Shown: positions 27,944 to 51,863 of the stretch, one piece after another
Layout of the letters: every line of letters begins with the position of its first letter
Numbering within the stretch: the first letter of the stretch is position 1
Assembly (NCBI GenBank): GCA_033182465.1
Contig: CP137325.1
Span: 1,488,001 to 1,552,000, forward strand
Source of the DNA: Sanghuangporus weigelae
Lineage: Eukaryota; Basidiomycota; Agaricomycetes; Hymenochaetales; Hymenochaetaceae
Direction of reading: 5' to 3'
DNA: 64,000 bases
Program-made: the position numbers and the translations under genes
Notes under the pieces: model-generated
The model's database searches: none
What the model saw: only the letters and a program-made list of their open reading frames with translations
Told to the model about the DNA's origin: nothing

Positions 27944-28462
27944 TTATTCTTCATCACAAAACATGATATTAAGAAAAAGGCATGAAAATTCACAAAATGT
28001 CCAATTTTGCACCTCACCCTTCTTCCCGTGTACATTTCCGTTCCCATTCCCAGTGTCCAAAGGCAACGGAATATGTACAGAAGAAGTGCTGATTCACTGC
28101 TGAAAGGGCACATCTAGAAACGCGCCGATCACCTTCCGAAAACGGGGGACCATCTGCAATATTTCAGTATACACAGCAGGCAAACAGGTATTTAGACACG
28201 GACTAAATCCATTACTAGATGACAAATGAAATTTGAAATATAATAATGCATTTAGTTGCACAATATATTTGATGTCTTTTCCTTAGCTAAATGCTAAACT
28301 ATAATTGAAATAACAAAAGGGATTTAGATTCGGATTTGGTAAACAAAGAAATAACTATAATTACTAAACTAAAAAGTATAGTTATTTCTTTGTTTACCAA
28401 ATCAAAATCAAAATACCTTTTGTTATTTCAAATATAGTTTAACATCTAGTCAAAGAACAAAT

Positions 28463-29974
28463 TGAAAGGATCCGCTCAAAAACTCGCATCAGGATCGACA
28501 CGATCAACAGATCTACACGATCAGCTTTCCAAACGCGACCGGTAACCAAGCCAGCTATCAAAGGCCCAAGCAATCGAGCGGCCTAGGCAACAGTAACCCG
28601 TTACCACCCGAGCGCTAGAAGCACCGAAGCGGATACGTAATCCCGCTAACAGCTAACACCGCCGACCGCCTATTACCGCGGACTACCACTCTAACGCCGC
28701 CGACCAAGCAACCAGAGCGACCTCGATCAAAAGAAGCGATCAAACTTCTTAGAAGTCCAGAAGCACAACTACTAAAGCCTAAACGCTAAAAGGCTAAAGG
28801 CTAATAAGGTTTATGGAGACCTCACTGGCATTTCAGCACTGTCAAGTCTGTGCACGAGTTTACATGGTCCTTTATGAAGTATACTACTTAGTATGCACGG
28901 CAACGGTTGGTACGCGTGACTGTCACATCGAAACCGAGCGACACCTTCAGGATACAATGCATTCCAATCCACCAAGCCCAATAGTACCCAAGAAACGAGA
29001 GGAACTCACGATCACAACTCGGACCCCTCGAACTGCGAACCCGATAACTTGGAGAATGATTGGATGGTATAGACCGGAGTTGCACACACCATGTCCAGCA
29101 TCTACGATACAGGCAAACCTTTATTTACCGAGAGATGCGAACCTGGAAACCAAGCAATTACAACTCCTTATACAACGAAGGATATGGCGCTACATTCGAG
29201 ATATACGATACGAAGGCAAAGCATGGCTAGTCACCAGAACCCAGCAGAACCCACCAGCAGAGCTTATGCAGTTCATGATATGCCTTGGACCATACTCTAC
29301 ACCGACCCGACACCTTAACACTGACGTGCGAGTTATGCTTACCCTCGCTGGACCTCGAGATGAATTCCGAAGAATCACATACCGAGCAGCCTACATCGCT
29401 CCAAGAGCAAAGATGCCACTCAATGACGGCAATGACATCGTTATGGAGTACTGACAGTGGAGCATTCCATATCGGAGCACCACCTCTATTGTCTCAGTCA
29501 GCAACTCCAAAGAATTCTGTCATAGTGGAGACGACCTTACAAAGATTGGAGCAAAGTGGAGCGAAGCGCAGCAGGATGACAAAGGAACAGATGTAATGGT
29601 GGAGGAAAGTGGAGTAAAGTGGAGACAGGATGAGTAAGAAATAGGACGGAAAATGGAATATCTGGGAGCATAAATAGTTGTAGGATTAGGCCCTCATTTC
29701 CCCATCTTTCGATCCTCTTAACACACTGGTGTAAAGCTTGCCCTACAGCGAGCTATTACTGTGTGCTTTGTACTATCACGCCTCTTGGAAATCCCAATCT
29801 GCTTTACTATTACCTCGTATCTGAAAGCATCCATAACTCGGACCGCGACTAGGAAGGCTAGTAAGGGACCGCGTGGTACAGCCAGACGTGGGTAGATAAG
29901 ATCACCTCTGCACAACACACCGCTGCTTAGGCAAAAGGATCAAACCGGTGTAACTCCGGGCCTACTCCCTAACA
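28463..29974 (+). repeat. 5' LTR of the chromovirus
   Basis: Begins TGAAAGGATCCGCTC and ends CTCCCTAACA. It is the same length as the 3' LTR and nearly identical to it. It contains a long open frame (28813-29454) and a TAAATAG box-like stretch near 29670. The LTR is long for a fungal Ty3 element. Confidence 0.95.
28813..29454 (+). CDS. Open reading frame inside the LTR
   Basis: A 213-codon frame lies wholly within the 5' LTR. The same reading is open over a shorter 165-codon stretch in the 3' LTR (39735-40232). The protein is basic, with WRMIGWYRPELHTP and RRIWRYIRDIRYEGKAWLV stretches, and has no recognised domain. It could be an accessory protein or chance. LTR-encoded proteins are rare in Ty3 elements. 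Confidence 0.4.
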   Translation: METSLAFQHCQVCARVYMVLYEVYYLVCTATVGTRDCHIETERHLQDTMHSNPPSPIVPKKREELTITTRTPRTANPITWRMIGWYRPELHTPCPASTIQANLYLPRDANLETKQLQLLIQRRIWRYIRDIRYEGKAWLVTRTQQNPPAELMQFMICLGPYSTPTRHLNTDVRVMLTLAGPRDEFRRITYRAAYIAPRAKMPLNDGNDIVMEY

Positions 29975-30035
29975 TTGGATCGAAAGATCACTTGCTAGTT
30001 TTACCACCACCTCTCACGGGCAAGGTTCTTGGCTA

Positions 30036-31408
30036 GTGTTTTATCGAGGCGAGGACCGTCGACCTCAAGTCCCTATCGACGTCACTAGTTTCGAGACTAG
30101 TACCCATATCGAATCCTCAGGACAAGTGCACATCCTGGAGAACGACAAACCCGATTCACTTAAATCACATATCTACTATCATAACCCCTACAACGACGAA
30201 GTGTACCTAATAGCAAAGGCATCTGGTAGCCCTGCAGTTGGGAGCACGCAAACAACAACCACGAAAGTAGCAGCAGTCCCTTCCACTATTGCTACATTCG
30301 ACGAGAAAGGAACTACTTGGTTAACAGCACCAAGGAACAATAACCCTGAAGCATCAGGCGAGAAACGAAGTTCATGAACCGATCAGGAAACGCCAACAAC
30401 AGAAGTAACGGTCATCGAACGAACGAACGGGCGAACGATAATCAAACGAGGTTCACACCTAGATCCCTCGACGAACGAGTTCAACATATCACCAACAGGC
30501 TACGTAGTCTGGAAAGCGATCACGACATACTATACGCGACAACGAACCACAGCATATTGTATCCACCAGTGATCAGAAGGCTACAAGAAAGGGTTGAAAG
30601 ACTGGAAGAACGAACTGCAAACACGGGGCAGTCAAACAGTCTACCAACCGGAGCATACGCGACAGCAGTAGGAGATCGATTCGAAGCACTCGAAACAACT
30701 ACTCGAAGAATTGGAGCACAGGTAGCAGCTCTAGAGAGATATACTCTGGAATTGGATCGAGCAGCAGGGGCACTCAATCAACGGGTCATAGACGGAAACG
30801 GAGTACTTGACCGAGAGCTCAACGCTATCCGGAACAGGATTACTGCTCAGGAACAACAACTACAAACGATTGAGACGAGAGTCGGAGAGCTTAACAGGAC
30901 AGCTCTAGATCAACCAAGGATTGTTCAAGACATCCATAACCTGCGAGAAGCCCTACTCCAACTAGGACAAACAATCGAGTCGAGTCAACGCACCTACGCA
31001 GCTATACTCACATCGGTACAGACAACCGAAACCACCTCGAGGAACATACTCGAACACGCTCAACGAATTCGAGAAGTAGCTCAGGCAGCACAACGCTGGG
31101 AATACTTTCTACCAAGAGAGAGAGCCCAACAGGAACAGAGTTCTGACGAATCAGTGTCCTCAGACGAAGAAGCATCACGAAGGCCATTCTTACTCAGAAC
31201 CCCACCTCGAACGGTTATTATCCAAGTACCAACAGTACCTGCAGTACCAACGAGTGGTTCAGTAGCAACCCAAGCGCCAGAGAATCCACCACCACCATCC
31301 TATTCACCACCAGCAGTGCCCATAAGCACTTACGATCATGTCGACAACCGACCAGAAGGTGCAAGCACTGGAGCAGCAACTACAGACTCTTCAGACACAA
31401 CTCTCTAA
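30036..31408 (+). CDS. Chromovirus leader ORFs (short ORF plus coiled-coil ORF)
   Basis: Two abutting frames: 30036-30377 (113 codons, no known domain) and 30374-31408 (344 codons). The second overlaps gag by about 70 nt. The 344-codon product is predicted to be a long coiled coil: ALERYTLELDRAAGALNQRV and similar heptads across residues 50-230. It ends with an acidic Ser-rich and then Pro-rich tail (PPPPSYSPP). It may be a structural partner of Gag or an N-terminal Gag module. No homology is claimed. Confidence 0.55.
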
Positions 31409-32426
31409 ACACAGCATCAAGCTTCCGAAGTACTATGGCAAGCGAAGCGAAGATATTGATCTGTGGATTAGTCGATGTATCTCGAAGCTGGCACAGCATG
31501 GAGTCAAGGACGAGGAGGAAATCGCAAAGAGCCTATTTGCGGCACTAGAAGGCGACAGCTACGATTGGTTTGCAGAGAAGAATACCCTAACATCATTCGA
31601 TGCCAATGGGAAACTGAAACCAGTACCTGCGATTATCGCTGCAACAAATGGAATGTTCGCATCACTCAAGGACATGCTGAACTGGATGAGGATCCGAGCA
31701 GGACATCCGATCATTGGAGAACAGGAAGCCCTATTCCAACTACTATGCATCCAGCAGAAAGGAGCAAGCATTAGGGCGTACAACGACGAATTCCGACGAC
31801 TCAAAGCACGAGCACCAGACACGATGGATAAGCAGATGCTCAAGTACATCTATGTCAAAGGACTAGACATGTGGGTCAAACGACGAGTCGAATCTGTACA
31901 ACCCGACGCTTTCGAGAAGAACGACCTCGATGCATGGATGGAATGGACAAGCAACCTAGCAAACTCTGATGCCAGGCAAAGGCTCATGGGTAGTCAAACA
32001 TACACCCCGAGATTCAAATCGAATGGACAGTCATCTTTCCGACCACCAGTACAAACAACGAAACGAGATCCAGACGCCATGGATGTAGATGCACTCCGAG
32101 GCTTGCCGAAGAAGGGAGGCAAATGCTACAACTGTGAAAAGTCAGGACATTACGCAAAGGAGTGCAAGGCACCAAGGAAGCAAAAGGGTTCTTCCTCTAA
32201 GCGGCCGAAGAAGACTAATGGTGTAAAACGGAGGACGATGACAACACGAACAATCGATTTCAAGGAAACATGTCCCGATCCACACTGCCGAAGGCCAGTC
32301 CACTACGACCATGTAGCATGGGCTAAAGGCGATGAATCAGCAGGATGGACTTGCAAGCATGACGAAGAATACCGAAACAACATTCGCAAATCCCTAGCAA
32401 GTAAAGAGCAACAGGGAAAAGATTAA
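31338..32426 (+). CDS. gag: Gag of the chromovirus
   Basis: 362 codons. The N-terminal part has a short coiled coil (VQALEQQLQTLQTQLSKHSI) then the Ty3-type capsid region (KYYGKRSEDIDLWI … IRAYNDEFRRLKARAP). A CCHC zinc knuckle, CYNCEKSGHYAKEC, is at about residue 263. A second Cys/His-rich stretch follows (CPDPHCRRPVHYDH). It lies in a different frame from pol, which starts about 100 nt downstream. Confidence 0.9.
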   Translation: MSTTDQKVQALEQQLQTLQTQLSKHSIKLPKYYGKRSEDIDLWISRCISKLAQHGVKDEEEIAKSLFAALEGDSYDWFAEKNTLTSFDANGKLKPVPAIIAATNGMFASLKDMLNWMRIRAGHPIIGEQEALFQLLCIQQKGASIRAYNDEFRRLKARAPDTMDKQMLKYIYVKGLDMWVKRRVESVQPDAFEKNDLDAWMEWTSNLANSDARQRLMGSQTYTPRFKSNGQSSFRPPVQTTKRDPDAMDVDALRGLPKKGGKCYNCEKSGHYAKECKAPRKQKGSSSKRPKKTNGVKRRTMTTRTIDFKETCPDPHCRRPVHYDHVAWAKGDESAGWTCKHDEEYRNNIRKSLASKEQQGKD

Positions 32427-32530
32427 GACCTCCATCGAACGAGACTGCGCGATGTGAGTGTGACAAGGGTGACGAGAAAGGTTTCAACAACCAGTGTTTC
32501 AAACCTCCTGGGTTCAACCCCAGTGAAGCG

Positions 32531-35500
32531 ATGTACAATAAGCGATTGCCAATACAAGCATTGCATCCCCGATTACCTATTCGAGTGAAGGTTGGAACAA
32601 AGACCCTAGCAGTCAAAGCATTAATCGATTCCGGAGCTACATGCAGCACGATACACCCCAACTTGGTACGACACTACAGCCTATTCAAAAAGAGGCTTGA
32701 TCACCCTCGACCTTTGAATAATGCGGATGGAAGTCCCAACCAAGGAGGAGCAATCACGCACGAGGTCTACACATTAATTTTTGATGGACCTAAACCGCAG
32801 CCACAAACGTTGGCAGTAGCAACCACAGGACAGGATCAAGTGATCCTAGGAATTGACTATTTGGCCAAAGTCAATCCCGAAATTGATTGGAAGAATCAAG
32901 TATGGAATCGGAATGGTAATTCGATACCATTCGAGCTCAACGTCATACGAGCTACCAAGAAGCGAAGGCACAGGAAGCGCAAACGGAAACGGCAAACGAA
33001 AGGCAAACCTGACAAGACAAGACCTAGGCATAACACGAAGCAACAGGCTCAGGACAGAGACAACTATCGACACTCTGGAGCACCAGGAATAATATTTGCG
33101 CCAAGGAGAGACAACAACGGACACTCTCACGAAACGAAGCCACAAGCGAAGCCGGAAACCAGACCAGCAACACCAAGACTGGAACAGGCAAAACAGACGC
33201 CAGAAGTGAAGAGTCCGAGCACGGAAAATATACCAGACTCTGCAACAAAACAGCCACAACAGGAAACGGCAAACAAGCATCATCGAGATGAGGAGGAAAT
33301 AAACTACACTCCCAAGCGATGGAAGAAACAGGCACCACAAGGAACGAGTATAGTGCAACGACGACCAAGGCACATACCGAGACGGATGATCCCAGCACGG
33401 CAACTGTACCAGACATCCGAAGGTGAAACACAAGATGTAACAGGCAAGCATAGCCTAGACGAACAGGAGGAAATAAACGACTCTCCGAAACGTTGGAAGA
33501 AACAACCACCACAGAAGATACACCCACTGAGGCAAAACATGCCGGAAGATGAAGAACTCTGGCCATCACCAGAAGAAAACCCGGGCATGAAGTATAGGAT
33601 ACGACCACGAAAGACACGGTATCCAGAGAAGCCAGTGGCAGGCATTATACGACCGAGAACGGCATCGTTAATGCGAGGAGCTAGTCCCACACCGAAGCGT
33701 ACAAGATGGGCAGACAACGAAAGCGATATCGAGATGCAAGACGAGCAGGAGACAACAGAAGACACTCCTATGCACGATATAGAGCCAGAAGACATTGAAA
33801 GTCTTAGGACGACCAACCAACCAGCTACCCTTACCAGAAAGGAAGAGCTCGCTGCAAAGCTAGAGCTAGACATCAATCGAAATTGGTCACCAAGGCAGCA
33901 GAACCAAGTCTCACAGCCTCTGAACAAAGCGAGTTCAGTATCCCAGCAGTATTCTCAACAAAAGGCAGCTGCAGAAGGACTACTAGGAACACAGAAACGA
34001 GATTGGCGAAAACTCCTACCAAAGGAAATAGAAGACTACGCAGATGTCTTTGATCCTGACAAGTCAAGAAGGTTACCCAAGCATACGAAATGGGATATGG
34101 CGATTAACCTCAAAGAAGGAGTACCATTACCGAAACCAAGGCCTATTATCAAGCTCACACGAGAAGAGCAGGCAGCACTCGATGCTTACGTCAAAGAGTT
34201 ACTTGACAAAGGATGGATTGAAAAGGTTCAACCACATGAACCATGTCCGGTAGCAGCACCAGTCTTCTTTGTAGGAAAGAAAGACGGAGGAGCACGAGCA
34301 GTAACCGATTACCGAGACATCAACGACACGACAGTATCAGATCCATACCCGATACCGATCATGAGTGTTCTCCCAGAGAAACTGGAGAAAGGAAAATTCT
34401 TCTTTACACTCGACATGCGATCAGGTTACAACAACCTGCGAATCCGAGAAGGAGACGAGTGGAAGGCAGCATTCCGAGTTGGCAATGCAGTCTACAAGCC
34501 AAAGGTCATGATGTTTGGAATGAAGAACTCACCGGCAGTATTCCAACGATTCATGAATGACAACTTCGAATATTGGCTCAGGACAGAAGAAGCACTCAAC
34601 TATTTGGACGACCTTATTAGTCAAGCACAAACTGAAGAGGAACATTGGAAACTCCTCAGGGCAATTCTACAGAAATGCCGAGAGCTCGACATCTACCTCA
34701 AAATTGAGAAATGTCACTTCCTCCAAACCCAGCTCGACTACTTGGGATTTGTAGTAGGAACAAAAGGCATCCAGATGGATCCTTATAAGCTCAAAGCTAT
34801 TCACGAATGGCCAGTGCCAAAGACGAAACGACAAGTTCGAAAGTTCCAAGGATTTTGTAACTTCTACCGAAGATTCATCAGGAACTATGCCGATACATTC
34901 GCACCTATTGGCGACCTTATCAAAAAGGATCGCAAGTTCATATGGGCAGAGGCACAAGACAAGGCATTCGAAAGTATCAAGAAGGCATTCGAAACGGAAG
35001 TCGCATTGGCAATGCCAAAGCCAGACAAATCATACACATTGGAAACCGACGCATCCGATGTAGCGATTGGTGCAGTCTTACAACAAGAAGACAACCAAGG
35101 AGAACTGAGACCTTTAGGTTTCATGTCGAAAACTCTAACAAACACCCAACGAAACTATCCGACGCATGACAAAGAGATGCTAGCAATCATGGAAGCACTC
35201 AAGCATTGGAGACACCTATTGGAGGGAACCAAAGAACCAGTAACAATCCGAAGCGATCATGCAAATCTCCGATACTTCATGACAGCTCAGAATCTATCGA
35301 GACGTCAAGCGAGATGGGCACTAGAGTTATCACGATATAACTTCAAGATTCTCCATTGGCCAGGCAAGAAGAACCAAGCTGACGAGCTATCACGACGATC
35401 CGACTATATGCCAGAGGACAAGGACAACTTAGGAGTTACCTTGTTACCTCCTGATACGATCAAGCAACAAACATTGCGACGAACGGAAATCAATGGTCTA

Positions 35501-37009
35501 TACAAGCTAGAAACTGAAATGGTCACTATCTCTGATCCTATTATCCGAACGATCAAGAGGAACTACAATACCGAGGAGGCTAAGAAGGAAATTCAGGCGA
35601 TCAAGCAGAGCAACGGCTACAGTTACAGGAACGGCTTGCACTACGTAACCAATGCATTATATATCCCGCCGTCCGCCAACCTACGAGCGTTGCTAATCCG
35701 AAGGCGCCATGATCACAAACTTGCAGGCCACCCAGGAGCAGAAAAGACCATAGAGCTTGTAAAGCGATCATACTATTGGCCGAAGATGGAAGAAATGATC
35801 CGAGCATATACCGCAACCTGCGACATATGTCAGCGTGCAAAACCGATTCGACAGTTTCGAAATCCGCCGCTCCAACCGTTGGAGGCACCACATCAACCAT
35901 GGGAAACCATAACCTGTGACCTGATTACCGACTTACCAGTCAGCAATGAAGGCTACAGTGCGATACTCGTTATAGTGGACAAACTCACTAAAATGGGGAA
36001 GTTCATTCCTTGCCAAGGAATACCCAATGCTAAGCAGTTGGCACGTTTGTTCCGCCAACATGTCTTCAAATACTACGGGGCCCCTAAACGAGTAATCTCC
36101 GACCGAGGTAGCAACTTCACCGCGCAATTCCTCAAGGAGTTCTGCAGACTCATCGATGTCGATTGGAAAACTAGTACAGCGTATCATCCACAAACCGATG
36201 GTCAAACCGAGCGACTAAATCAAGAGCTTGAACAGTACTTACGCTGCTATGTGTCCTACCGACAAACAGATTGGGCAGAGTACATCGATATAGCAGAATT
36301 CGCCTACAACAACAGGAAGCACAGTACTACACATCAGTCACCATTCTATACACTGTATGGATGGCATCCTCACCTGGACGTTGCGGAGACCGGTGATTCA
36401 AACGTCCCAGAAGCAATAAATCACCTAGAGGAGCTTCGACAAGTACAGCAAGAAGCCTATAATTCGATTAGGCAAGCGAATGAGGCAATGAAGCTTTATG
36501 CAGACCTGCATCGAGGCAAACTGCCAGAGTACAAGCCAGGAGACGAAGTGTTACTAGACATGAGGAATCTCAGTCGATTGGAACCAACGAAGAAACTTGC
36601 AATGAAATGGGCAGGGCCTTATAAAGTCGAGAAGGCAGTCGGACAAGTGTCATTCAGATTACGCTTACCCGAAACCCTTCCGATCCACCCAGTGTTTCAT
36701 GCGAGTCTTCTCAGGCCTTACAAACGAAAGGAATACCCTGGAAGACCCACTTTGGATGAACCACCACCTATTGAAGTGGAGGGAGAAGCAGAGTACGAAG
36801 TGGAGACAATTCATAACACAAGACGTCATCGGAGCAAGGTCCAATACCTTATCCAATGGAAAGGATACCAGGAGCGAACATGGGAGCCACTTGACAACCT
36901 CAAGAACTCCTATCAAATGATCGAAGCATTCCATAAAAAGTATCCTCAGGCAATCCAGCCACCGAACCTTAACCAATGGATCGCCGCACGAAAACGAATG
37001 AGGCAATAG
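32531..37009 (+). CDS. pol: Pol polyprotein with chromodomain integrase
   Basis: 1,492 codons, open throughout. Parts in order: aspartic protease (IDSGATCS at about 32), a long basic linker rich in RR/KR and Pro (about 140-480), reverse transcriptase with YLDD at about 691, RNase H (ETDASDVAIGAV at about 838), an integrase HHCC zinc domain (HDHKLAGHPG … CDICQRA, about 1060-1105), the catalytic D,D,E region (ITCDLITDLP, VISDRGSNFT, HPQTDGQTERLNQELE) and a C-terminal chromodomain (YEVETIHNTRR … YLIQWKGYQERTWEPLDNL, about 1419-1460). The chromodomain places it in the chromoviruses, which target chromatin marks. Confidence 0.95.
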   Translation: MYNKRLPIQALHPRLPIRVKVGTKTLAVKALIDSGATCSTIHPNLVRHYSLFKKRLDHPRPLNNADGSPNQGGAITHEVYTLIFDGPKPQPQTLAVATTGQDQVILGIDYLAKVNPEIDWKNQVWNRNGNSIPFELNVIRATKKRRHRKRKRKRQTKGKPDKTRPRHNTKQQAQDRDNYRHSGAPGIIFAPRRDNNGHSHETKPQAKPETRPATPRLEQAKQTPEVKSPSTENIPDSATKQPQQETANKHHRDEEEINYTPKRWKKQAPQGTSIVQRRPRHIPRRMIPARQLYQTSEGETQDVTGKHSLDEQEEINDSPKRWKKQPPQKIHPLRQNMPEDEELWPSPEENPGMKYRIRPRKTRYPEKPVAGIIRPRTASLMRGASPTPKRTRWADNESDIEMQDEQETTEDTPMHDIEPEDIESLRTTNQPATLTRKEELAAKLELDINRNWSPRQQNQVSQPLNKASSVSQQYSQQKAAAEGLLGTQKRDWRKLLPKEIEDYADVFDPDKSRRLPKHTKWDMAINLKEGVPLPKPRPIIKLTREEQAALDAYVKELLDKGWIEKVQPHEPCPVAAPVFFVGKKDGGARAVTDYRDINDTTVSDPYPIPIMSVLPEKLEKGKFFFTLDMRSGYNNLRIREGDEWKAAFRVGNAVYKPKVMMFGMKNSPAVFQRFMNDNFEYWLRTEEALNYLDDLISQAQTEEEHWKLLRAILQKCRELDIYLKIEKCHFLQTQLDYLGFVVGTKGIQMDPYKLKAIHEWPVPKTKRQVRKFQGFCNFYRRFIRNYADTFAPIGDLIKKDRKFIWAEAQDKAFESIKKAFETEVALAMPKPDKSYTLETDASDVAIGAVLQQEDNQGELRPLGFMSKTLTNTQRNYPTHDKEMLAIMEALKHWRHLLEGTKEPVTIRSDHANLRYFMTAQNLSRRQARWALELSRYNFKILHWPGKKNQADELSRRSDYMPEDKDNLGVTLLPPDTIKQQTLRRTEINGLYKLETEMVTISDPIIRTIKRNYNTEEAKKEIQAIKQSNGYSYRNGLHYVTNALYIPPSANLRALLIRRRHDHKLAGHPGAEKTIELVKRSYYWPKMEEMIRAYTATCDICQRAKPIRQFRNPPLQPLEAPHQPWETITCDLITDLPVSNEGYSAILVIVDKLTKMGKFIPCQGIPNAKQLARLFRQHVFKYYGAPKRVISDRGSNFTAQFLKEFCRLIDVDWKTSTAYHPQTDGQTERLNQELEQYLRCYVSYRQTDWAEYIDIAEFAYNNRKHSTTHQSPFYTLYGWHPHLDVAETGDSNVPEAINHLEELRQVQQEAYNSIRQANEAMKLYADLHRGKLPEYKPGDEVLLDMRNLSRLEPTKKLAMKWAGPYKVEKAVGQVSFRLRLPETLPIHPVFHASLLRPYKRKEYPGRPTLDEPPPIEVEGEAEYEVETIHNTRRHRSKVQYLIQWKGYQERTWEPLDNLKNSYQMIEAFHKKYPQAIQPPNLNQWIAARKRMRQ

Positions 37010-37263
37010 TTGCATCACATGCACTCCACCCGATGGAGCCGCTTATGGATCCACAATAGAGACGATGAGTAAGGTCCCCAATGACCTTACCAAGCGATGA
37101 CATCAATGTGGCACACCAAAGCGAGAGCAGAGATAGAAGAATTAGGCAAGACATCGCCGACATACCAACAAGATGGTATAAAACATGGAGAACTTCGAGC
37201 TAAGGAACAACAACTTGAATCTCAACAAGCTCTACTTCACTGCAGACGAACCACTACTCAGCT

Positions 37264-38262
37264 ATGCCTATTTTCGACGAGCTACATGCATTCTGTCAAC
37301 CAGAAGATGCACCAGAATGGACATTTACACTCAGGCCACCGACCGAACGTTATCAATGGCCACAGCTGTGCAATCGATTCAACGAAGAGAACTACGAAGA
37401 TGAGATTGTACCCCTATGCCCAGGGAAGTACTTCGATGATCTATTCGACAAGTGGAACGCAGTCCACCACAACCGAGACGAAATACCCCACCTTATGATG
37501 GCGAATCACTCAGACGAGTGGTTATTCAAACTCAGTAACCCTCGAGACGCAGCATTACGCCGACTCAATGATGATGCATTTCTAACCTACGCGATCGAAC
37601 TCGAAACACAAGCATTACATCGAGGCAAGATCGACTTTAGGCACGAAACGACATACAAGAACATCATGGGCATCTATCATTCGGCAATTCAAATTTGCGC
37701 CTACCGACGAGACATGACTACCACAATTCTTAACCGAATGATGCGATGGAGTCACTATCATCCGATGAGCATCGATGCGATGAAGTACATTATATACATA
37801 GCCGACCAGACGGGCTTCTATGCATCCCACACCATGCAGTTCATGACGGTACTCAACATGACGAAGTATTACGAAGGAACGAGATACCGAACGGTTATTG
37901 AAGCGAGGAACTCTACTACGGACGAGGTACCACTCGACAACATCGAGCACCACGTAGTCGAAGGCAAAGAGGTTAACTACGACCCTCATTACCTTATGGA
38001 ACTCAACAACCGAGAGGAAGAAGCCAGAGAAAAACTACAGGCTACACGACACCCCTTGCTGGAAGATCTGATGATCTCAGTCTACCAGTACCCGAACGAA
38101 CTCTACCAGCCGGACGAGATGCTTACTATGTCGGAACAGGAGGACATGTACATACACTCCGACGATACAGAGTCAAGTGAAGAAGGTGAAAGTAGGGAAC
38201 TATATACCCCAGCGAACTCGGCCCAGACTACACCTGAGGCTGAAGAATCCGAAGATTTGTAA
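37264..38262 (+). CDS. Extra ORF in the env position
   Basis: 332 codons between pol and the 3' LTR. It starts MPIFDELHAFCQPE and ends in an acidic Ser/Glu-rich tail (SDDTESSEEGES). No signal peptide or membrane segment is visible, so it is not an obvious envelope. The frame is open along its whole length, which argues for function in the element. Not recognised. Confidence 0.6.
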   Translation: MPIFDELHAFCQPEDAPEWTFTLRPPTERYQWPQLCNRFNEENYEDEIVPLCPGKYFDDLFDKWNAVHHNRDEIPHLMMANHSDEWLFKLSNPRDAALRRLNDDAFLTYAIELETQALHRGKIDFRHETTYKNIMGIYHSAIQICAYRRDMTTTILNRMMRWSHYHPMSIDAMKYIIYIADQTGFYASHTMQFMTVLNMTKYYEGTRYRTVIEARNSTTDEVPLDNIEHHVVEGKEVNYDPHYLMELNNREEEAREKLQATRHPLLEDLMISVYQYPNELYQPDEMLTMSEQEDMYIHSDDTESSEEGESRELYTPANSAQTTPEAEESEDL

Positions 38263-38579
38263 ACAACTCTTCTTTTATGCAACCCCTTTCCCATATCGTG
38301 ACCCGACATGGTCAATTATGCATTTCATTCTTACCTTATGATATTTATGGTCACATCCGACCAAATTATGCTTTATGCACCTCTTTATTTCACGCTTATT
38401 CGGCCAACCAGCACAAATGAAGCACTATGCAGAAGTGTCAAAGAACCTACAAGGGCCTAGACATTTTGTATATTGTTTTATTGTGCCGGCTCCGAATTAG
38501 CAGATTATGCCTACCTTTTATTATCCTCTATGCAACGGAGAAGCCAAAAGTTTACGTGAAGTCACTCCCTTGCATCATG

Positions 38580-39120
38580 CTAGGATGTGCCTTCACGCTG
38601 AAAGGCACTCCAATTACACTCTTTCTTCGAAAAACTCCATTTGGGGGTTGAAGAGCCGTAGGTAAACACCTGGAACTTCACTCCCAAATTGGTATAAAAC
38701 TTATTCATTAACGACTTTATGATTTCTTTCTTATCACTTTCAATTGCGTCATATTCTTTACATGATGCACATTTCATATTCATATCCCTTCCCACCACCC
38801 TTTACAAGTCAATGTCTTCCCAGACACCCTTTTCACGACGTTCCTGCGAAGCAATACCTGCATTTTCGACGACTGGATCGATAACCTCAACGTCATAACC
38901 GAGCGCGAGGTGAACTCGAAGCGCGACAGTACTAACATCGCGCTGGAACGATTGCATTTCGAAGTCAGCCTCCTAGAGGATGATTAACAACTCGAAACGG
39001 CACAGAGCATGCATCACTACCTGAGCACGCCTCTTACGCTCCAAAATCCAATGATTTATGCCGAAAATCGCGACAATAACGACAAAAACAGTAACAGCAG
39101 CGGCGACTTTCGACATTTTG
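38580..39120 (-). other. Antisense coding-like stretch before the 3' LTR
   Basis: On the minus strand a short frame starts near 39117 with a membrane-helix-like segment (VTVFVVIVAIFGINHWIL), followed by further coding-like segments to about 38580. Antisense ORFs in this place are reported for some large plant Ty3 elements. Here it may equally be captured host DNA. No product is recognised. Confidence 0.3.
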
Positions 39121-39240
39121 GAGCAGAGATGATGATGGTTTGATAGCAAAAATCAACCATCACTAGGCGACCCTTTATCCGAGCTTTCTCACGGATTAGG
39201 ATGAACATTTCTCCGAAAGTTCATCTTAGGGGGGGTGTAG

Positions 39241-40752
39241 TGAAAGGATCCGCTCAAAAACTCGCATCAGGATCGACACGATCAACAGATCTACACGATC
39301 AGCTTTCCAAACGCGACCGGTAACCAAGCCAGCTATCAAAGGCCCAAGCAATCGAGCGGCCTAGGCAACAGTAACCCGTTACCACCCGAGCGCTAGAAGC
39401 ACCGAAGCGGATACGTAATCCCGCTAACAGCTAACACCGCCGACCGCCTATTACCGCGGACTACCACTCTAACGCCGCCGACCAAGCAACCAGAGCGACC
39501 TCGATCAAAAGAAGCGATCAAACTTCTTAGAAGTCCAGAAGCACAACTACTAAAGCCTAAACGCTAAAAGGCTAAAGGCTAATAAGGTTTATGGAGACCT
39601 CACTGGCATTTCAGCACTGTCAAGTCTGTGCACGAGTTTACATGGTCCTTTATGAAGTATACTACTTAGTATGCACGGCAACGGTTGGTACGCGTGACTG
39701 TCACATCGAAACCGAGTGACACCTTCAGGATACAATGCATTCCAATCCACCAAGCCCAATAGTACCCAAGAAACGAGAGGAACTCACGATCACAACTCGG
39801 ACCCCTCGAACTGCGAACCCGATAACTTGGAGAATGATTGGATGGTATAGACCGGAGTTGCACACACCATGTCCAGCATCTACGATACAGGCAAACCTTT
39901 ATTTACCGAGAGATGCGAACCTGGAAACCAAGCAATTACAACTCCTTATACAACGAAGGATATGGCGCTACATTCGTGATATACGATACGAAGGCAAAGC
40001 ATGGCTAGTCACCAGAACCCAGCAGAACCCACCAGCAGAGCTTATGCAGTTCATGATATGCCTTGGACCATACTCTACACCGACCCGACACCTTAACACT
40101 GACGTGCGAGTTATGCTTACCCTCGCTGGGCCTCGAGATGAATTCCGAAGAATCACATACCGAGCAGCCTACATCGCTCCAAGAGCAAAGATGCCACTCA
40201 ATGACGGCAATGACATCGTTATGGAGTACTGACAGTGGAGCATTCCATATCGGAGCACCACCTCTATTGTCTCAGTCAGCAACTCCAAAGAATTCTGTCA
40301 TAGTGGAGACGACCTTACAAAGATTGGAGCAAAGTGGAGCGAAGCGCAGCAGGATGACAAAGGAACAGATGTAATGGTGGAGGAAAGTGGAGTAAAGTGG
40401 AGACAGGATGAGTAAGAAATAGGACGGAAAATGGAATATCTGGGAGCATAAATAGTTGTAGGATTAGGCCCTCATTTCCCCATCTTTCGATCCTCTTAAC
40501 ACACTGGTGTAAAGCTTGCCCTACAGCGAGCTATTACTGTGTGCTTTGTACTATCACGCCTCTTGGAAATCCCAATCTGCTTTACTATTACCTCGTATCT
40601 GAAAGCATCCATAACTCGGACCGCGACTAGGAAGGCTAGTAAGGGACCGCGTGGTACAGCCAGACGTGGGTAGATAAGATCACCTCTGCACAACACACCG
40701 CTGCTTAGGCAAAAGGATCAAACCGGTGTAACTCCGGGCCTACTCCCTAACA
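39241..40752 (+). repeat. 3' LTR of the chromovirus
   Basis: 1,512 bp, the direct repeat of 28463-29974. It is followed directly by the CAAAT duplication and the right arm of the fold-back MITE. Confidence 0.95.
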
Positions 40753-41042
40753 CAAATATAAAATATACTACATGACTAAATGCATTATTATATTTCAAAT
40801 TTCATTTGTCATCTAGTAATGGATTTAGTCCGTGTCTAAATAACTGTTTGCCCACTGTGAGTAATAGCCGTGTGGACACGTGTATCACTCATACCATACA
40901 GATGCTATAAGTAGTCTTGGATATTGTGAGAAGCTCAGACATATTGATATCCTTTCCCATGCATGTGTGTTGCACTAATAAACTTTTATAACTCCAAAAT
41001 ATTGCTTACAAACAAACAACTTTGATTATTACTAATTCTGTA

Positions 41043-42331: not shown

Positions 42332-43813
42332 ATGACACCTTCAGAGACGATTATTGCCACCATCAATTAAAGGACGTTCTTGAAGCATGCGATTGTAAGT
42401 CATGCCTCGAAATGACCTCGAAGACTCCTCCGAACTTGGAGCGCCGCGCATTTGGTAGCCACATGCGCTCGATTGCTCTCAATGATGCATTTGCTGAGCT
42501 TCTTGTTCACGAAGAGGAGTCCGAAATTGTCACGTTGGGATCAGCCTTCTCAGCCCAAGGACTCAGATTCTTCCTTGCTGCAGACCAGAACAAGAATCTC
42601 GATGTCTTGGGGGCACGACTTCGAGAAGTATGGGATCGGCTTCAGGGAATAAAAACGGCTGTCTACGGTTCTCCTGATGCCAGAACTGAACTCGCCAAAA
42701 CGAAGAAACAAAGCACAGATTTCAGACGCTTTGTATACGAATATTCTTGGAATAAGTACGTGCAACGGTACAATAAATACAAGATCCCGGATCTTGCGCG
42801 TTTCTTTGAGGAAGTCCTGGATAACTCGATCCACGTAGTAGATTCAGCTCCAGAGGATACGGATGAATATATCCTTCCAGGTGAGTTGAAAGCTATCGCG
42901 TGCGTTCGGACCGCGTGTCGAATCACAGACAAATGCAAGTGCGCGGAAGAACACGATGGCGATGATCTCAAGACCCTTGCATTGTCCATAGAATATCTGA
43001 ACCACTTATTGAAGGACTTAAGGCAAGACGCTGTCACCAGATGGGGTTTAGTCCGTACGTCCGATCTCTCCCTTCAGAGATTTGTCTAAACAGAGCATCA
43101 TCTTTCTTACTATAGTCATCGGGATAACCCATACGAGTTCACGAGTCGCACTTCCGAACTTCATTGAGAAGTTAACCTCGATAGAGAGTGCAGTTTGAGA
43201 GGTACTTCGCATCCCATATTCCTGACATTATCGTGCCGTTTTGGATGGCCATTTAGATATTGATCTTGTCGCTATTCGGCCCGTTTTGCTGAAGTATGAT
43301 TTGCTTAATGATCTGGATTTTTGCAATATCACAAAGCAATCTCCTTCCACGGCCCAGATATTTCAGGATACATGGAGGGGGAACGTTTCGAATGACCACG
43401 AGCCTTGGAAGTTTGAGGGAACTGTATACCCTCATTGCGAATGTGCTTTGTTAGCGTACCTTATCTCGAAGGACAACATGAGTGGCACTACACCTTATGG
43501 CTGCATTGGTGTCTCCAGATCATCGTGCACCGGATGTTGGCTATTCCTGTCGGCGTACAATGACACCGCAGATCGATATGGCCTCCCGAAGTTCTACATC
43601 AGCGAATCTCATTCACAGACCTACGCACAATGGACAAAACCAGACATTTCAGATAAAAGACTCGATTTACTTATCGAATCTAAACTATGTGCTCACGGGA
43701 AGGATATTCTCAGAAGAGCTCTTGACAGGGAGGCGAAGACCAGGCAAGAGCGTATTCTTGCTGAGGCTCGTCGCCAGGAAATGCTGAAATTTGGTGAAAT
43801 CGCCAGTAAGTGA
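42332..43813 (+). pseudogene. Deaminase family copy D (full-length but broken)
   Basis: Covers both halves: the helical N-terminal half (LERRAFGSHMRSIALNDAFA, YSWNKYVQRYNKY) and, after an intron-like gap near 43060-43135, the deaminase-like half with VYPHCECALLAYL, GCIGVSRSSCTGCWLF and TYAQWTKPD, ending in a basic helical tail. It looks broken, with about two or three breaks, all outside the signature motifs. The upstream region carries two MITEs. It is the sister of C2. Confidence 0.75.
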
Positions 43814-44507
43814 AATTAATCTCCTAAAGTACACATAACTGATCCTCGGATCAAGAATATTTTGATGAAATTGGCTTACAATGTCTCACTACTTTGAGTA
43901 ACAAATCTTTATGCTGATTCAATGATTCGATGCACAAGGAATTCTGGGGTTGGACGAGGAGACTCAAATAATGCTCCTACGGCCCTGAAAGACACCGACT
44001 TTGATTCAGATGCACAACAGTACATGTGGAAGAATGCTCTGAACAATAATGGAACCATCAATGAGCTCTAGAAACATGACAGCAGTGAAATTCCTCACCG
44101 TGAATGCGTAGCGCTAGCACACCTTGTCAAGATTGTATGCAAGGAGCCAAAGGATCCTGTGCTTTGTATAGGCATTCACACCGGGCAAAGAGTTATTATA
44201 ATCTAAAAGAAATTTATAATTAGCTGACAAACAAGATTTGAAATTAAATACTGCATTTAATTACGTGAAATATTTCATGTTTGTTCCTTGATAGAACTTG
44301 AAATAACAATAAGGATTTAGATTCAGATTAGGAAAACAAAGAGATTTCAAATAATGTCGTGTGAGGAACAACACATAAAGAAACTTGAAGTCTTAGAAAA
44401 GCAAAAATGGTTAAGTTTAGTTATTGCCGAAATTTTATGTCTTTGATAGGAAGAAATTTAAAATTCTTTTTATTATTCTGACAAAGAAAAAATAAGTTTG
44501 ACTCTCA

Positions 44508-44618
44508 GTGGGCGCTCAGCGGGCGATCGGTGGGCGATCGGCGGGCGATCCGAGGGCGCTCAGCGGGCGCTCAGAGGATGCTCAGCGGGTACTCAGAGGG
44601 CGATCGGCGGGCAATAGG
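44508..44618. repeat. 11-bp tandem repeat, left arm
   Basis: About ten units of a (G)CGGGCGATCG / GAGGGCGCTCA pattern with period 11. It forms the inner edge of the left inverted repeat. Confidence 0.8.
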
Positions 44619-46000
44619 AAGGAAGCCACCTTCGGATCTGTAACATCGACACGGTAGCGATGCTCGAATTCGCGATCATTGATACCGAACGTTTTAATGC
44701 TCTGTCTCTCAATGAAAGTCTCATCCATGCCACCTTTGCCATAGACGAACTGTATGAGATTACCCAACGAGTTCCGAACAGTCCCGTCATAATGTACCAT
44801 GGTCTTCTAGAGTCTTGACAAGCCGCCGTTGGATGTAGCCAATCTCCGCCGTCTTGACAGCCGTGTCAATTAATCCCTCGCGACCCGCCATGGCGTGAAA
44901 GAAGAACTCTTGCGGTGTTAATCCACGCAAGTAGGAATTCTCAATGAAACCCGGCGCCTCTGGACTGAAATCATCCTTCATGAAGTGCGGTAGTGTTCGA
45001 TGTCTGAAGCCGAACGGGATACACTTCCCTTCCAAGGATTGCTGACCGACGCAAATAGACATCTGGGAGATGTTGATGAAGGAACCCTGGGAACCAGCGA
45101 CTACCATCTGCTTGGCATTATTGTCCTCTTTGTGGTTCTCCTGAGCATATTGACCAGAGGGATCACGAGCCAAATTGAGCTCCCGTTCGACTTGACTCTC
45201 GAAGGATTCGTGGATAGTCATACCCGGAGCTGCTTTCAGGCGATCCATGGCCGCATCTTCTATGACTTTGGCAACATTCTGTTTCCGCATCTTAATCTGC
45301 TCCGTGATGTACGCCATCGTTTTTCTGTCTGCAACCGTATCGCCGATACCGATACTGAATCCATTGTGGAACAGCCAATAATTGACGATATTCTGCAGAC
45401 CCGTAAAGAGCGATCGTGTAGCTTCAGGACCTTTCTCTCGGAAAACAACGTGCATCAGGCCGCCATGGGATGCGCCAACGGTCTTCTTTCTCAACAATAC
45501 CAAAGATGATCTCGCCATTCTCGATCAGTATGCCATCATCGAAGACAGGACTCCATGACTTGTTCTCGGGCGACCGGAAAATGTTGATCCCACGCGGGAT
45601 TGTCATGCTAAGAATTTGCTTGCCCGTCCATAAAAAATTGGGTTTCAAAATGGTTGGTGTTGGGATCGTGCCGTCCCAATTCGGTACCCAAAGCAGTATA
45701 TTCTGTACTTGTTGCCAATCAAGGGAACAACCTCGCAAGGTGAACTTGCGGATACCGCAAAGAGTATCCTGCACGATACCAATAACGGGCTTGTTCGCTT
45801 GGGGCGAAATGATCTGCCTGGGGACCCATTCTATTTGACTGAGCTCGGCCCGAGTCTCCTCGCTCTGGGGGACACTACACGAAGATGAGAAACGGCAGCA
45901 CAAGGCGGCAGTGATACGACGTACTGCATGTTCATTTCATCACCATCGAAGTCGGCATTGTACGGAGGAGTAATGGAAAGATTGAGACGAACGGTTGCAT
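44590..46000 (-). pseudogene. RPB1: Captured RPB1 fragment (RNA polymerase II largest subunit)
   Basis: Minus-strand blocks match the middle of Rpb1. They include the catalytic metal site [11 protein letters not shown] (near 45940), then [102 protein letters not shown] (before the bridge/trigger region) and [10 protein letters not shown]. The rest of the gene, including the N-terminal clamp and the C-terminal heptad repeats, is absent. The blocks lie in at least three frames, so this is not a working subunit. It overlaps the left tandem repeat edge. Some frame changes may be retained introns of the donor gene. Confidence 0.85.
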
Positions 46001-46313
46001 AGAATTGGTCAGAGTTCAGACATGAACATATAGGTCGAGCACGCACTTGAATAGGGCATTAGTCGGATCCTGTGACACATCATACCTTTGTGTGTGCAAT
46101 TATGGCTGTCTGTTGAAGAGGACATAATTGCGTTGATAGATAAATGAGACTAGATCAGGCGCTACTGAATGGTAGACTTACTCTCCGTTCATTAAGTGCC
46201 TTTCAAAGATCCATCCATACTGAAGAAATGCATCTGCATGCTTATTTTATTGAAGAGCTATATAGAGGATGCATGGACTTGTTAAGCATTGTATGTATGG
46301 TGAACTATCAGGA

Positions 46314-46468
46314 TTGCCCGCTGAGCACCCTCTGAGCACCCTCTGATCGCCCGCTGAGTGCCCTCTGAGTGCCCGCTGAGCATCCTCTGAGCGCCCACTG
46401 AGCGCCCTCGGATCACCCTCGGATTGCCCGCCGATCGCCCACCGATCGCCCGCTGAGCACCCACTGAG
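46314..46468. repeat. 11-bp tandem repeat, right arm
   Basis: About fourteen units, the inverse of the left-arm repeat (CCCGCTGAGCA, CCCTCTGATCG and similar, period 11). The copy number differs from the left arm. Confidence 0.8.
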
Positions 46469-46900
46469 AGTCAAACTTATTTTTTCTTTGTCAGAATAAT
46501 AAAAAGAATTTTAAATTTCTTCCTATCAAAGACATAAAATTTCGGCAATAACTAAACTTAACCATTTTTGCTTTTCTAAGACTTCGAGTTTCTTTATGTG
46601 TTCCTCACACGACATTATTTGAAATCTCTTTGTTTTCCTAATCCGAATCTAAATCCTTATTGTTATTTCAAGTTCTATCAAGGAACAAACATGAAATATT
46701 TCACGTAATTAAATGCAGTATTTAATTTCAAATCTTGTTTGTCAGCTAATTATAAATTTCTTTTAGATTATAATAACTCTTTGCCCGGTGTGCATTAGTG
46801 TTTCCAAGTTGTCATGCAGTGAATACTTGCTATATTTTTGGCGTACAATGTAATGGCATGGATTCCATACGAAAGTTTACCAGCCATAGGTCAAGCCTAA

Positions 46901-47532: not shown

Positions 47533-49008
47533 TCATTTGATTTGAAGAAGAAACCGCGTGGAATCAAGCATCCATTTGGCCTGCTCCAGACCCTTGTCAA
47601 GAAGGGTCCTCGCACGAGCACATAGTCGCGATTCTAGATTCGCGTCGAGCTGCTCGTGAGCAATTTCCGGCTTTGCCCACGGATGGCCAATATGTGCGTG
47701 GGACCTGGACATATAAATTTTTGGGAGTCTGGCTTTCTCTGCAACATCATTGTACGCCGAAAAATATAGCAAGCATCCGGTGCACGAATTGTCAGAAACA
47801 CTAACACATCTATAAGGCTTTGTATCTTCCGGCATACGTGGAATGTTCACGGCAAGGTGAGCCAGCAAAGCGCATTCGCAATGGAGATACGCAATTTGTT
47901 CGAGTCTCCAGACCCCCTTCCCCTCTGATGCGGCTTTCTTCCACGTATCTTCGAACATTTTGGCAGTCCAATCAGCCTGTTCTACCAGTTCACGAAGGTC
48001 CAGATCGTCGAGCAGATTGTACTTGAGCAAGACCGGCTCTATAGTGACAGGAATAAGAATAATGTCTTTATATAGGATAGCACCCAGATGTCGAGACTGC
48101 GGCAGACAGAGGACCTCCTGAATAGTACGTTCAACGAAAGATATCTTTTCAAAGAAAATTGAGAGCGGATAACGGGGAGTCCTGCCAATCATCTTATAAA
48201 CCACGGTTCAAAGAATAATATTTAGTTCAGTTCACCTCGCAACAGGGAAATAGAACGTACGGACTCTGCTCCACCTGATGGATGCGTCCTGCTTCAAACC
48301 GTCTAACTTGTGTAAAAAATGCGCGATGTACAATGCGTGGTCATTGAGACCATCACCATCAAGCGCATTTGCACTCTTGCATCTATCTATGAATCGACAT
48401 ATGGCTCTAAGGTGTTGGATAGCTTCCACTTCGCTCGAATGGATGTAGTACCCATTATCAGGGTGTGTATTTGTAACGTGGCGCGAGTTATTGAGCACCT
48501 CTTCAAAGAAATGAGGGAGCTCTGGATCCTTGTAATTATTGTACCGTCGCATGTGCTTGTTCTAAGAATACTCATAGACCAAGCGCCGAAATTCCAATTG
48601 TCTTTTTGCCCTTTCGGAGTGCTGGTCAGTAGCGGAGTCGAGCTTGGTTCTGAAGATTTGTTGAAGACTAGCCCAGATGTTTCGTAGATGCCCTGCTATA
48701 AGTTCTAATTCTTTATTCTTGTCCGAAGCAACGAAAACAATGAGCCCCTGAGTTGATAAGGCAGATGCTATCGCGACAGCTCCAGCCTGATCTTTGCGAA
48801 CAAGAAGCTCAGCGAGGGCATAGTGAAGAGCGATCACACGCTCATGACTTTTGAGTCTGTGGTTCCGGGATATCGGCAAGGAGTAGGGTGCCTGCATCAT
48901 CGTAAAGGTCATCTCTTCGGCAACGGATCTATCATCCCCCTTCTCCCACCAGCAAGGGCGGAGCACTGTCTGATTGATAGCAGCAATGACCATCTCGGAA
49001 AGTGTCAT
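47533..49008 (-). pseudogene. Deaminase family copy E (UAG and altered splice site)
   Basis: Exons expected at 48261-49008 and 47533-48200 by alignment with copy F, 471 codons if read through. It starts MTLSEMVIAAINQTV. The signature is AYLHCECALLAHLA, VSVSDNSCTGCLLYF and IGHPWAKPE. Codon 149 (48562-48564) is TAG at the same conserved Trp position as in copy B. The expected acceptor before TTTATAAG reads GG instead of AG. Two lesions make a pseudogene likely, though the rest of the frame is fully open. Copies E and F together mirror the A-B pair in order and orientation. Confidence 0.7.
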
Positions 49009-50347: not shown

Positions 50348-51863
50348 TCAAGTATCTTCAATCCCGTCGGTTCTCCCGATTTTCCAAGGGACAGCCTCCC
50401 CGGAATCGATCAGATCTTTGGTCAGATCCAGTGCCTCGTCGATAAGTGACCTCGCACGAGTACAAAGTCGTGACTCGAAGTCTTGGCTGAGCTCCTCGCG
50501 AGAAATTTCAGGCTTCGCCCATGGATGGCAAGTATCTGCGTTGAACTTGGACATATAGAACTTGGGAAGTCCGGCTTTCTCCGCAACATCATTGTATGCC
50601 GAGAAATAAAGCGAGCATCCGGTACAGGACCCATTGGAAACACCGATGAACCCGTAAGGCTTAGTATCTTCCTTCATAGTTGGAATATCTGTGACGAGAT
50701 GAGCCAGTAATGCGCATTCACAATGAGGGTACACGGTTCTTTCGAGTCTCCAGACACCTTTCCCGTCTGATACGGCCCTCTTCCACAGATCTTCAAACAT
50801 CCGCGCTGTCCAATGAGCCTGTGCTACTATTCTACAAAGGCTAGGATCGTTGAGCAGATCGTACTGGAGTAGAACAGGGCGAATGGTGACGGGAACGACA
50901 TTAATATCTCTGTCCAGAATGGCGCCCAAATGTCGGGAATACGGAAGATGAAGGATCGCCTGAACAGTACGTTCAACAATGCATATCTTTTCAATGAAAG
51001 ATGGGAGAGGATGTAGACGAAATTTGCCAGATATGCCATAAACTATTGAGACGAAAGACGATATTTAGTTAAGTCCAATTCGCAGAAGGGAAACATCAGA
51101 ACGTACGGACTCTCATCCACCTAATGATGGCGTCTTGCTTTATAGTCTTTACCTGGTGAACAAGATGAACCGTATTCAAGATATAGTCATCAAGACCAAC
51201 GCTATCAAGTGCATTCGCGCTCTCGCATCTGTCCATGAATCGACACACGGCTCCGAAGCGTCTGATAGCTTCCATTTCGCTAGGATGGATATACGTCCCA
51301 TCGTCTGAAGGCGAGTCTGTTACGTGGAGCGACTGATTAAGCACCTCATCAAAGAAACGAGGGAGATCCGGATCCTTGTAGTTGTTGTAACGTTGCATAT
51401 GCTTATTCCAGGAGTACTGATAGACTAAGCGCCGCAATTCTAATTCCCTTTTGGATCTCTCGGAAAACTCCCCGGTGGAAACTCGAGGAGGGTCGTCTCT
51501 GTTTCTGAGGATTTGTTGAAGACTAGTCCATACCTTTCGCAGGTGCTCTGCTATGAGATCCAGCTCCTTGTTCTCGTCTGAAGCAACGAAAATAATGAGC
51601 CCATGAGCTGATAATGCAGATCCTATCGCGACAGCTCCGGATTGGTCTTCACGAACAAGAAGTTCAGCGAGAGCATCATGGAGAGTAATTGCGCGTTCAT
51701 GGCTTCTAATTCTGTTGCGCCCGAATATCGGCAGAGCATAGGGAGCCTGCATCGTCTCAGCAACCATCTTTTCGGCAACAGATATATTAACCGTCTTATT
51801 CCATGGGTAAGAGCAAAGTACGCTCTGGCTGATAGCAGCAATAATCGTCTCGGAAAGTGTCAT
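50348..51863 (-). CDS. OTT_1508-like deaminase family protein, copy F (intact)
   Basis: Exons 51107-51863 and 50348-51042 with a 64-bp intron (GTACGT…CTCAATAG), 483 residues. It starts MTLSETIIAAISQSVL. The N-terminal half is helical, with ERAITLHDALAELLVRED and YSWNKHMQRYNNY (Trp at codon 152). The C-terminal half has ERTVYPHCECALLAHLV, GFIGVSNGSCTGCSLYF and CHPWAKPEI, the HxE and CxxC signature expected of a zinc-dependent deaminase fold. It is the best-preserved member of the B/C/D/E/F subgroup. Biochemical activity and substrate are unknown; the deaminase reading is by motif. Confidence 0.78.

Follow-up and report, generated by a model that had tools for sequence, protein, structure and literature searches.

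A probable Pack-CACTA-like transposon with a multiplied RPB1 cargo in the mushroom Sanghuangporus weigelae

Results

The window analysed here is a stretch of 64,000 nucleotides of the Sanghuangporus weigelae genome (contig CP137325.1, positions 1,488,001 to 1,552,000), and it contains a 2.6-kb element in which inverted arms of about 440 bp flank a reverse-oriented 1.65-kb piece of the RNA polymerase II largest-subunit gene, RPB1, as revealed by a repeat search and an alignment to the host gene (Table 1). In the repeat search, the outer arms (44174-44370 and 46599-46795, 197 bp) were 99% complementary and the inner arms (44370-44613 and 46359-46602, 244 bp) were 93% complementary. The element starts with CACACCGGGCAAAGAG, the reverse complement of which forms the other end; the RPB1 piece adjoins the left arm directly, and 83 bp separate it from the right arm. 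The 16-bp end was found 20 times in the genome and its reversed control was not found at all, which rules out chance. The long inverted repeats that the original prediction had described were thus borne out by the repeat search, and its CATT duplications were upheld in part: CATT is present on both sides of the window copy, but a 4-bp duplication is atypical of the family, which shows 3 bp. No transposase candidate was detected among the frames of the element, with the Pfam scan covering its 245-codon frame.

Elsewhere in the window, an OTT_1508-like deaminase domain (PF14441) was detected by scanning in the frames at 17602-18333 and 43226-43813, and similar-looking frames at 19877-20593, 47533-48207 and 50348-51064 lie on both sides of the element; these observations suggest that the PF14441-like frames form a local gene family. 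The window also holds a Gypsy-type LTR retrotransposon (LTRs at 28463-29974 and 39241-40752, 99.8% identical; pol frame at 32405-37009), which appears to be nested in a short CACTA-type element with ends at 28172 and 40859 and without a 3-bp duplication.

Table 1. Features of the RPB1-bearing element in window coordinates. H numbering is that of the reverse complement of the host RPB1 locus L021; the window coordinates of the introns were converted by hand from H numbering.
Feature	Position	Strand	Basis or remark
Whole non-autonomous CACTA-type element, family A	44177..46792	.	ends, arms, copies
CATT flank, left	44173..44176	+	
Left inverted arm	44177..44615	+	repeat search; self-match of element bases 1-439 vs 2170-2616
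GC-rich subterminal repeats, 11-bp spacing, inner left arm	44504..44618	+	
Captured RPB1 piece	44616..46262	-	H4114-5761 of the host gene, 92.6% identical
Open frame of 245 codons, RPB1 domains 3, 4 and 5	44787..45524	-	both termini in frameshifted sequence
Retained RPB1 intron, GT..AG intact	45875..45924	-	from H4451-4500
Metal-site codons (11 residues)	45927..45959	-	
Retained RPB1 intron, 3' AG changed to AA	45995..46046	-	from H4329-4380
Retained RPB1 intron, 3' AG changed to AA	46128..46181	-	from H4195-4248
GC-rich subterminal repeats, 11-bp spacing, inner right arm	46312..46468	-	repeat search
Right inverted arm	46346..46792	-	repeat search and self-match
CATT flank, right	46793..46796	+	

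The intact host RPB1 gene (locus L021) is located on the minus strand of contig C1, where an open stretch of 1216 codons that includes CTD heptads extends to about H8086 and the whole of PF04992 is present. The spliced part of this gene is 98.6% identical to Sanghuangporus vaninii RPO21_1 over 1514 residues and about 90% identical to the Pyrrhoderma and Coniferiporia proteins. It was singled out by PF04992 together with a protein search and not by the RPB1 profile PF00623, as introns split that domain; PF00623 gave 46 matches, those of Pol I and Pol III included, and the seven matches of the RPB2 control profile PF00562 fell at three places, the number expected from Pol I, II and III. Two other loci were rejected as donors: C4:2544092 is only about 60% identical over 99 residues to the 245-residue frame of the element, its frames presumably being those of Pol III by their motifs, and C4:830618 is 36% identical over 179 residues.

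Alignment to the host gene confirmed that the arms enclose the centre of RPB1 with its metal site, and the homology stops inside the arms rather than continuing beyond them as a normal paralogue would. The same alignment, which had been suggested as a check on introns, showed that three were kept, two of them with a damaged 3' AG; the source was therefore genomic DNA and not a transcript copy. As coding sequence the RPB1 piece is broken: the family-A majority (family A being that of the window copy) has two premature stops, Y318* and S349* (in partial numbering), and two frameshifts, caused by an inserted G after H4884 and the loss of 2 nt at H5573-5574. Changes private to family A, polarised with the old copy L022, comprise 12 synonymous changes at 330 sites and 26 nonsynonymous changes at 1162 sites (Fisher P = 0.17), a pattern in which selection is not significant and which is compatible with absent selection on the cargo protein.

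Copies were sought across the genome (33.87 Mb, 13 contigs). Four other copies align across all 2616 bases of the element (96-99% identity) and three align over most of it (93-99%), so that near-full family-A copies range from 93 to 99% identity to the window copy. These other copies sit at different places with different flanks and share the same junctions, which argues that the arms are not an assembly artefact, the doubt that had been attached to the original prediction. A 5.9-kb host-gene query returned at least 46 matches, namely the gene itself and 45 fragments; the number is a lower bound, as 40 of 48 candidates were scored. By hand grouping, the fragments fall at about 34 places: 16 of family A, four each of families B, C and D, two lying further 5' and four not assigned. 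The families carry overlapping parts of RPB1 (A, H4114-5761; B, H2960-4200; C, H3699-4649; D, H3385-4594) between arms that differ from one family to another, and none of the matches to the 5.9-kb query derives from beyond H5761. Two diverged 5' pieces of RPB1, H2270-3278 and H2579-3452 (75-78% identity), lie at C10:1797852-1798718 and C2:2767179-2768149 and are perhaps older captures.

Several observations were made on individual copies. The old family-A copies L022 and L023 have 56 changes in common relative to the host and family A, 46 of which are C-to-T or G-to-A (hand count), as if they had undergone RIP-like or methylation-like decay. Two family-A copies (L037:3693-3822 and L035:1190-1319) each contain an insertion of a 130-bp element that has CACACCGGGCAAAAACTC ends and 3-bp duplications, and many pairs of CACACCGGGCAAAAACTC ends at the spacing of this element are present in the genome. 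One family-D RPB1 piece is broken up by opposite-oriented copies of a 1.5-kb sequence (L025:1717-3222 and L025:3674-5179).

Repeated subterminal motifs are a criterion of CACTA/EnSpm elements, and target duplications are 8 bp in hAT elements and about 9 bp in Mutator-like elements (Pack-MULE). The window copy ends in CACACC..GGTGTG and so has CAC..GTG termini, and family D ends in CACTACGGGCAA, which starts with CACTAC. Identical 3-bp flanks were present in 13 of the 17 elements with both ends read, the exceptions being the window copy (with the 4-bp CATT instead), L005, L036 and the 28172-40859 pair; among RPB1-bearing elements the fraction was 9 of 12 (A, 6/9; B, 2/2; D, 1/1). GC-rich subterminal repeats similar to those of family A were seen by eye in the arms of B, C, D and a further element, L043; for A-B and A-C the similarity was supported by BLAST. 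Fungal EnSpm elements are described, in the portion of the source available, as having CAC..GTG ends and 3-bp duplications (PMC12730594), and these data indicate that the window element is of CACTA/EnSpm type, given its CAC..GTG ends, the 3-bp duplications in 13 of 17 elements and the subterminal repeats. Rice and maize CACTA elements differ in having 5-nt target duplications according to the accessible text of PMC8903248. The 3-bp duplications do not fit hAT or Mutator-like (Pack-MULE) assignments for the elements examined. A Plavaka assignment was rejected, and Plavaka elements gained no support as the origin of the transposase: the accessible text of PMC12730594 gives Plavaka ends as TGT..ACA or CATCA..TGATG, the element ends in CAC..GTG, and the Plavaka profile matches are distant from the ends listed. 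In the accessible portion of the S. weigelae genome paper, the repeat table has 'DNA/others', 'MITE' and 'Unclassified' and no CACTA/EnSpm class (PMC10803629).

A genome profile search matched Transposase_21 (PF02992) at three places only. Two of these lie between paired family-C ends, in elements of 19-20 kb (C1:195805-215722 and C6:2027145-2045731) that are 98% identical across the 5.8-kb stretches compared and that both contain RPB1 H3699-4649. The C1 element was read over 196 bp of its left end, a 1.5-kb stretch that includes the transposase, and its rightmost 6.2 kb; its Transposase_21 frame has 443 codons (E 2.4e-12), its left and right ends are identical across the 196 bp read, and it is flanked on both sides by TTT, a low-complexity triplet. 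The third place, C5:367674, lies 3 kb from a family-C-like stretch. By this profile evidence, one RPB1-carrying CACTA-type family has a Transposase_21 frame, and with it a predicted transposase. Adjoining the left end of the long C1 element, at L045:1-25 (C1:195781-195805), is an end like those of family D (CACTACGGGCAATTTAGTA, minus strand).

The original prediction had also proposed a search for elements with different cargo. The 20 exact A-type ends include eight inverted pairs, seven with RPB1 and one (C2:3932441-3933201) that matches in the arms only. Among the 53 CACAGCGGGCAAA ends, 14 pairs are inverted and close together: the two long family-C elements, L044 and 11 short elements of 0.39-0.66 kb. 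In the elements of several kb that were examined, RPB1 is thus the main cargo that could be recognised. L043:340-4675 and L044:274-5137 are related elements of 4.3-4.9 kb that have similar ends, 3-bp duplications and no recognised cargo, with no Pfam match in the three frames tested; their internal segments are inverted relative to each other.

The relationship of the families was assessed in the overlaps of their RPB1 windows, with gap columns dropped and with L022 and L023 treated separately from the A majority. Host-only sites were synonymous or intronic in 14 of 14 cases in the A/C/D overlap and in 13 of 14 in the B/C/D overlap, whereas, of the changes private to one fragment family, 33 of 61 and 48 of 76, respectively, were nonsynonymous; the contrast between host-only and private changes has a P of about 2e-5 in each overlap. 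Since a neutral shared stem would leave nonsynonymous damage and all but one of the host-only sites lack it, a long shared pseudogene history is rejected, and the host-only differences are changes of the host gene after capture. The H4884 insertion is common to A, L022 and L023, which indicates that these stem from one capture. C and D have 11 sites in common, three of them nonsynonymous, and so may also stem from one capture. P278Q is common to B, C and D at a position where P is retained by the three further fungal RPB1 proteins compared, which allows for a very short shared stem. An outgroup-free tree that left out the duplicate loci L006, L012-L018 and L040-L042 and the rows under 70% coverage gave support of 100 for A, 97 for C/D with L024, and 100 for B, with deeper nodes weak at 66-72. 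From these comparisons we conclude that the fragments probably represent at least three captures (A, B and C/D), or else one short early burst.

Discussion

The data presented here make it probable that the window element is a non-autonomous, Pack-CACTA-like transposon whose RPB1 cargo has been multiplied, and we propose repeated capture for the families as a whole. As in Pack-TYPE (Pack-CACTA) elements, a piece of a host gene, RPB1 H4114-5761, lies between the arms, and the donor is intact on C1. The original prediction, a Pack-type TIR element with a captured part of RPB1, is supported by the arms, the duplications at sister copies, the intact donor, the introns and the amplification. In the mechanism envisaged, a transposase from a family-C-type element would act in trans on the window element through their similar CACA[C/G]CGGGCAA ends, and the cargo would have been taken from the RPB1 locus as DNA, either between two nearby CACTA ends or as a template for the repair of an excision gap. 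Capture would have occurred more than once (at least for A, B and C/D) and within a fairly short period. The RPB1 cargo itself is most likely a passenger without a function in the cell.

A single founding event, in which one long stretch of RPB1, or a transient second copy of the gene, was acquired once and then rapidly divided among the terminal types through deletions and exchanged ends, is a possibility on the unlikely side. The families branch close together in a star-like manner, their overlapping windows lie in one gene, and P278Q in B, C and D and the three nonsynonymous C/D sites would fit such an origin; however, the junctions and arms differ between families, the frameshift indels of A are absent from C and D and vice versa, and none of the 14 host-only sites in the A/C/D overlap is nonsynonymous. 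Construction of the element in another species, with arrival by horizontal transfer and an RPB1 donor other than that of this host, would account for host-only synonymous differences that are many relative to A-private changes outside the 5' third of A, but we regard it as very improbable, as the fragments are far closer to the host RPB1 than to the other proteins found (80% at best outside Sanghuangporus) and the host-only pattern is common to all families. That the locus is just a truncated RPB1 paralogue between inverted repeats, or an artefact of assembly, is barely conceivable, since independent copies that differ in their flanks have the same junctions and the multi-copy ends have a control count of zero.

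The element shares 454 of 2596 21-mers with the host RPB1 locus, the longest identical run being 70 bases, so small-RNA action is possible in principle, and the many copies with long inverted arms would suit an RNA-mediated effect on the host; nevertheless, tuning of host RPB1 by these elements through antisense or small RNAs seems improbable to us, as the coding damage and the non-significant selection on the cargo require no host function. It is likewise doubtful, if slightly less so, that preference or selection explains the RPB1 cargo, with several CACTA lineages having acquired overlapping parts of the gene independently because they gain from it, for example through costly silencing or through dampened Pol II-dependent control of the element.

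Plants are the best-known setting for gene capture by TIR transposons. In mushrooms, the Helitrons of Pleurotus ostreatus reportedly capture genes and would likewise be a case of gene capture by DNA transposons, but Helitrons are rolling-circle elements, whereas the window element has long inverted arms and target duplications. Plant Pack-CACTA/Pack-TYPE elements, as portrayed in the accessible text of PMC8903248, share with it the non-autonomous TIR structure, CACTA-like ends and host gene DNA that includes introns or exons, and mobilisation in trans would be a further likeness; the S. weigelae case differs in that the host is a mushroom, one essential gene is carried in overlapping windows by several terminal types, and an element with a transposase frame itself carries a gene piece. 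Animal Pack-TIRs are also TIR elements with captured DNA, and those of them with several copies have spread by transposing, as their distinct target duplications show; the elements covered in the available part of PMC8277862 are mostly single-copy and belong to other superfamilies, in contrast to the reuse of one gene by CACTA elements here.

The clearest capture of a fungal housekeeping gene that we found is that of histone H3 by hAT elements in ascomycetes of the class Dothideomycetes where, according to the accessible sections of PMC6710886, the gene was transduplicated from a transcript, multiplied and inactivated by RIP while the original stayed intact. The RPB1 case is alike in that a housekeeping gene was captured, multiplied and inactivated with the original intact; it differs in that genomic RPB1 with introns was captured, by CACTA elements and in a basidiomycete, and strong C-to-T decay is confined to two old copies. 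Literature searches of open-licence PMC listed no paper on the capture of RPB1 by a transposon. The best label is Pack-CACTA-like elements in a mushroom, unusual for their recurrence on one essential gene. Several CACTA terminal types with overlapping RPB1 windows form a natural series for questions of capture mechanism and silencing.

The annotation of RPB1 is affected as well. RPO21_3 (P0017), a 183-residue S. weigelae protein, shares 95.6% identity with the A-type copy L036. Its last residues are HGTL, which is how the window frame reads after the 2-nt deletion of family A; the best 120 of 203 matches to RPO21_3 included no other Sanghuangporus protein. Short RPB1 'paralogues' in mushroom annotations, such as RPO21_3, can thus be transposon cargo.
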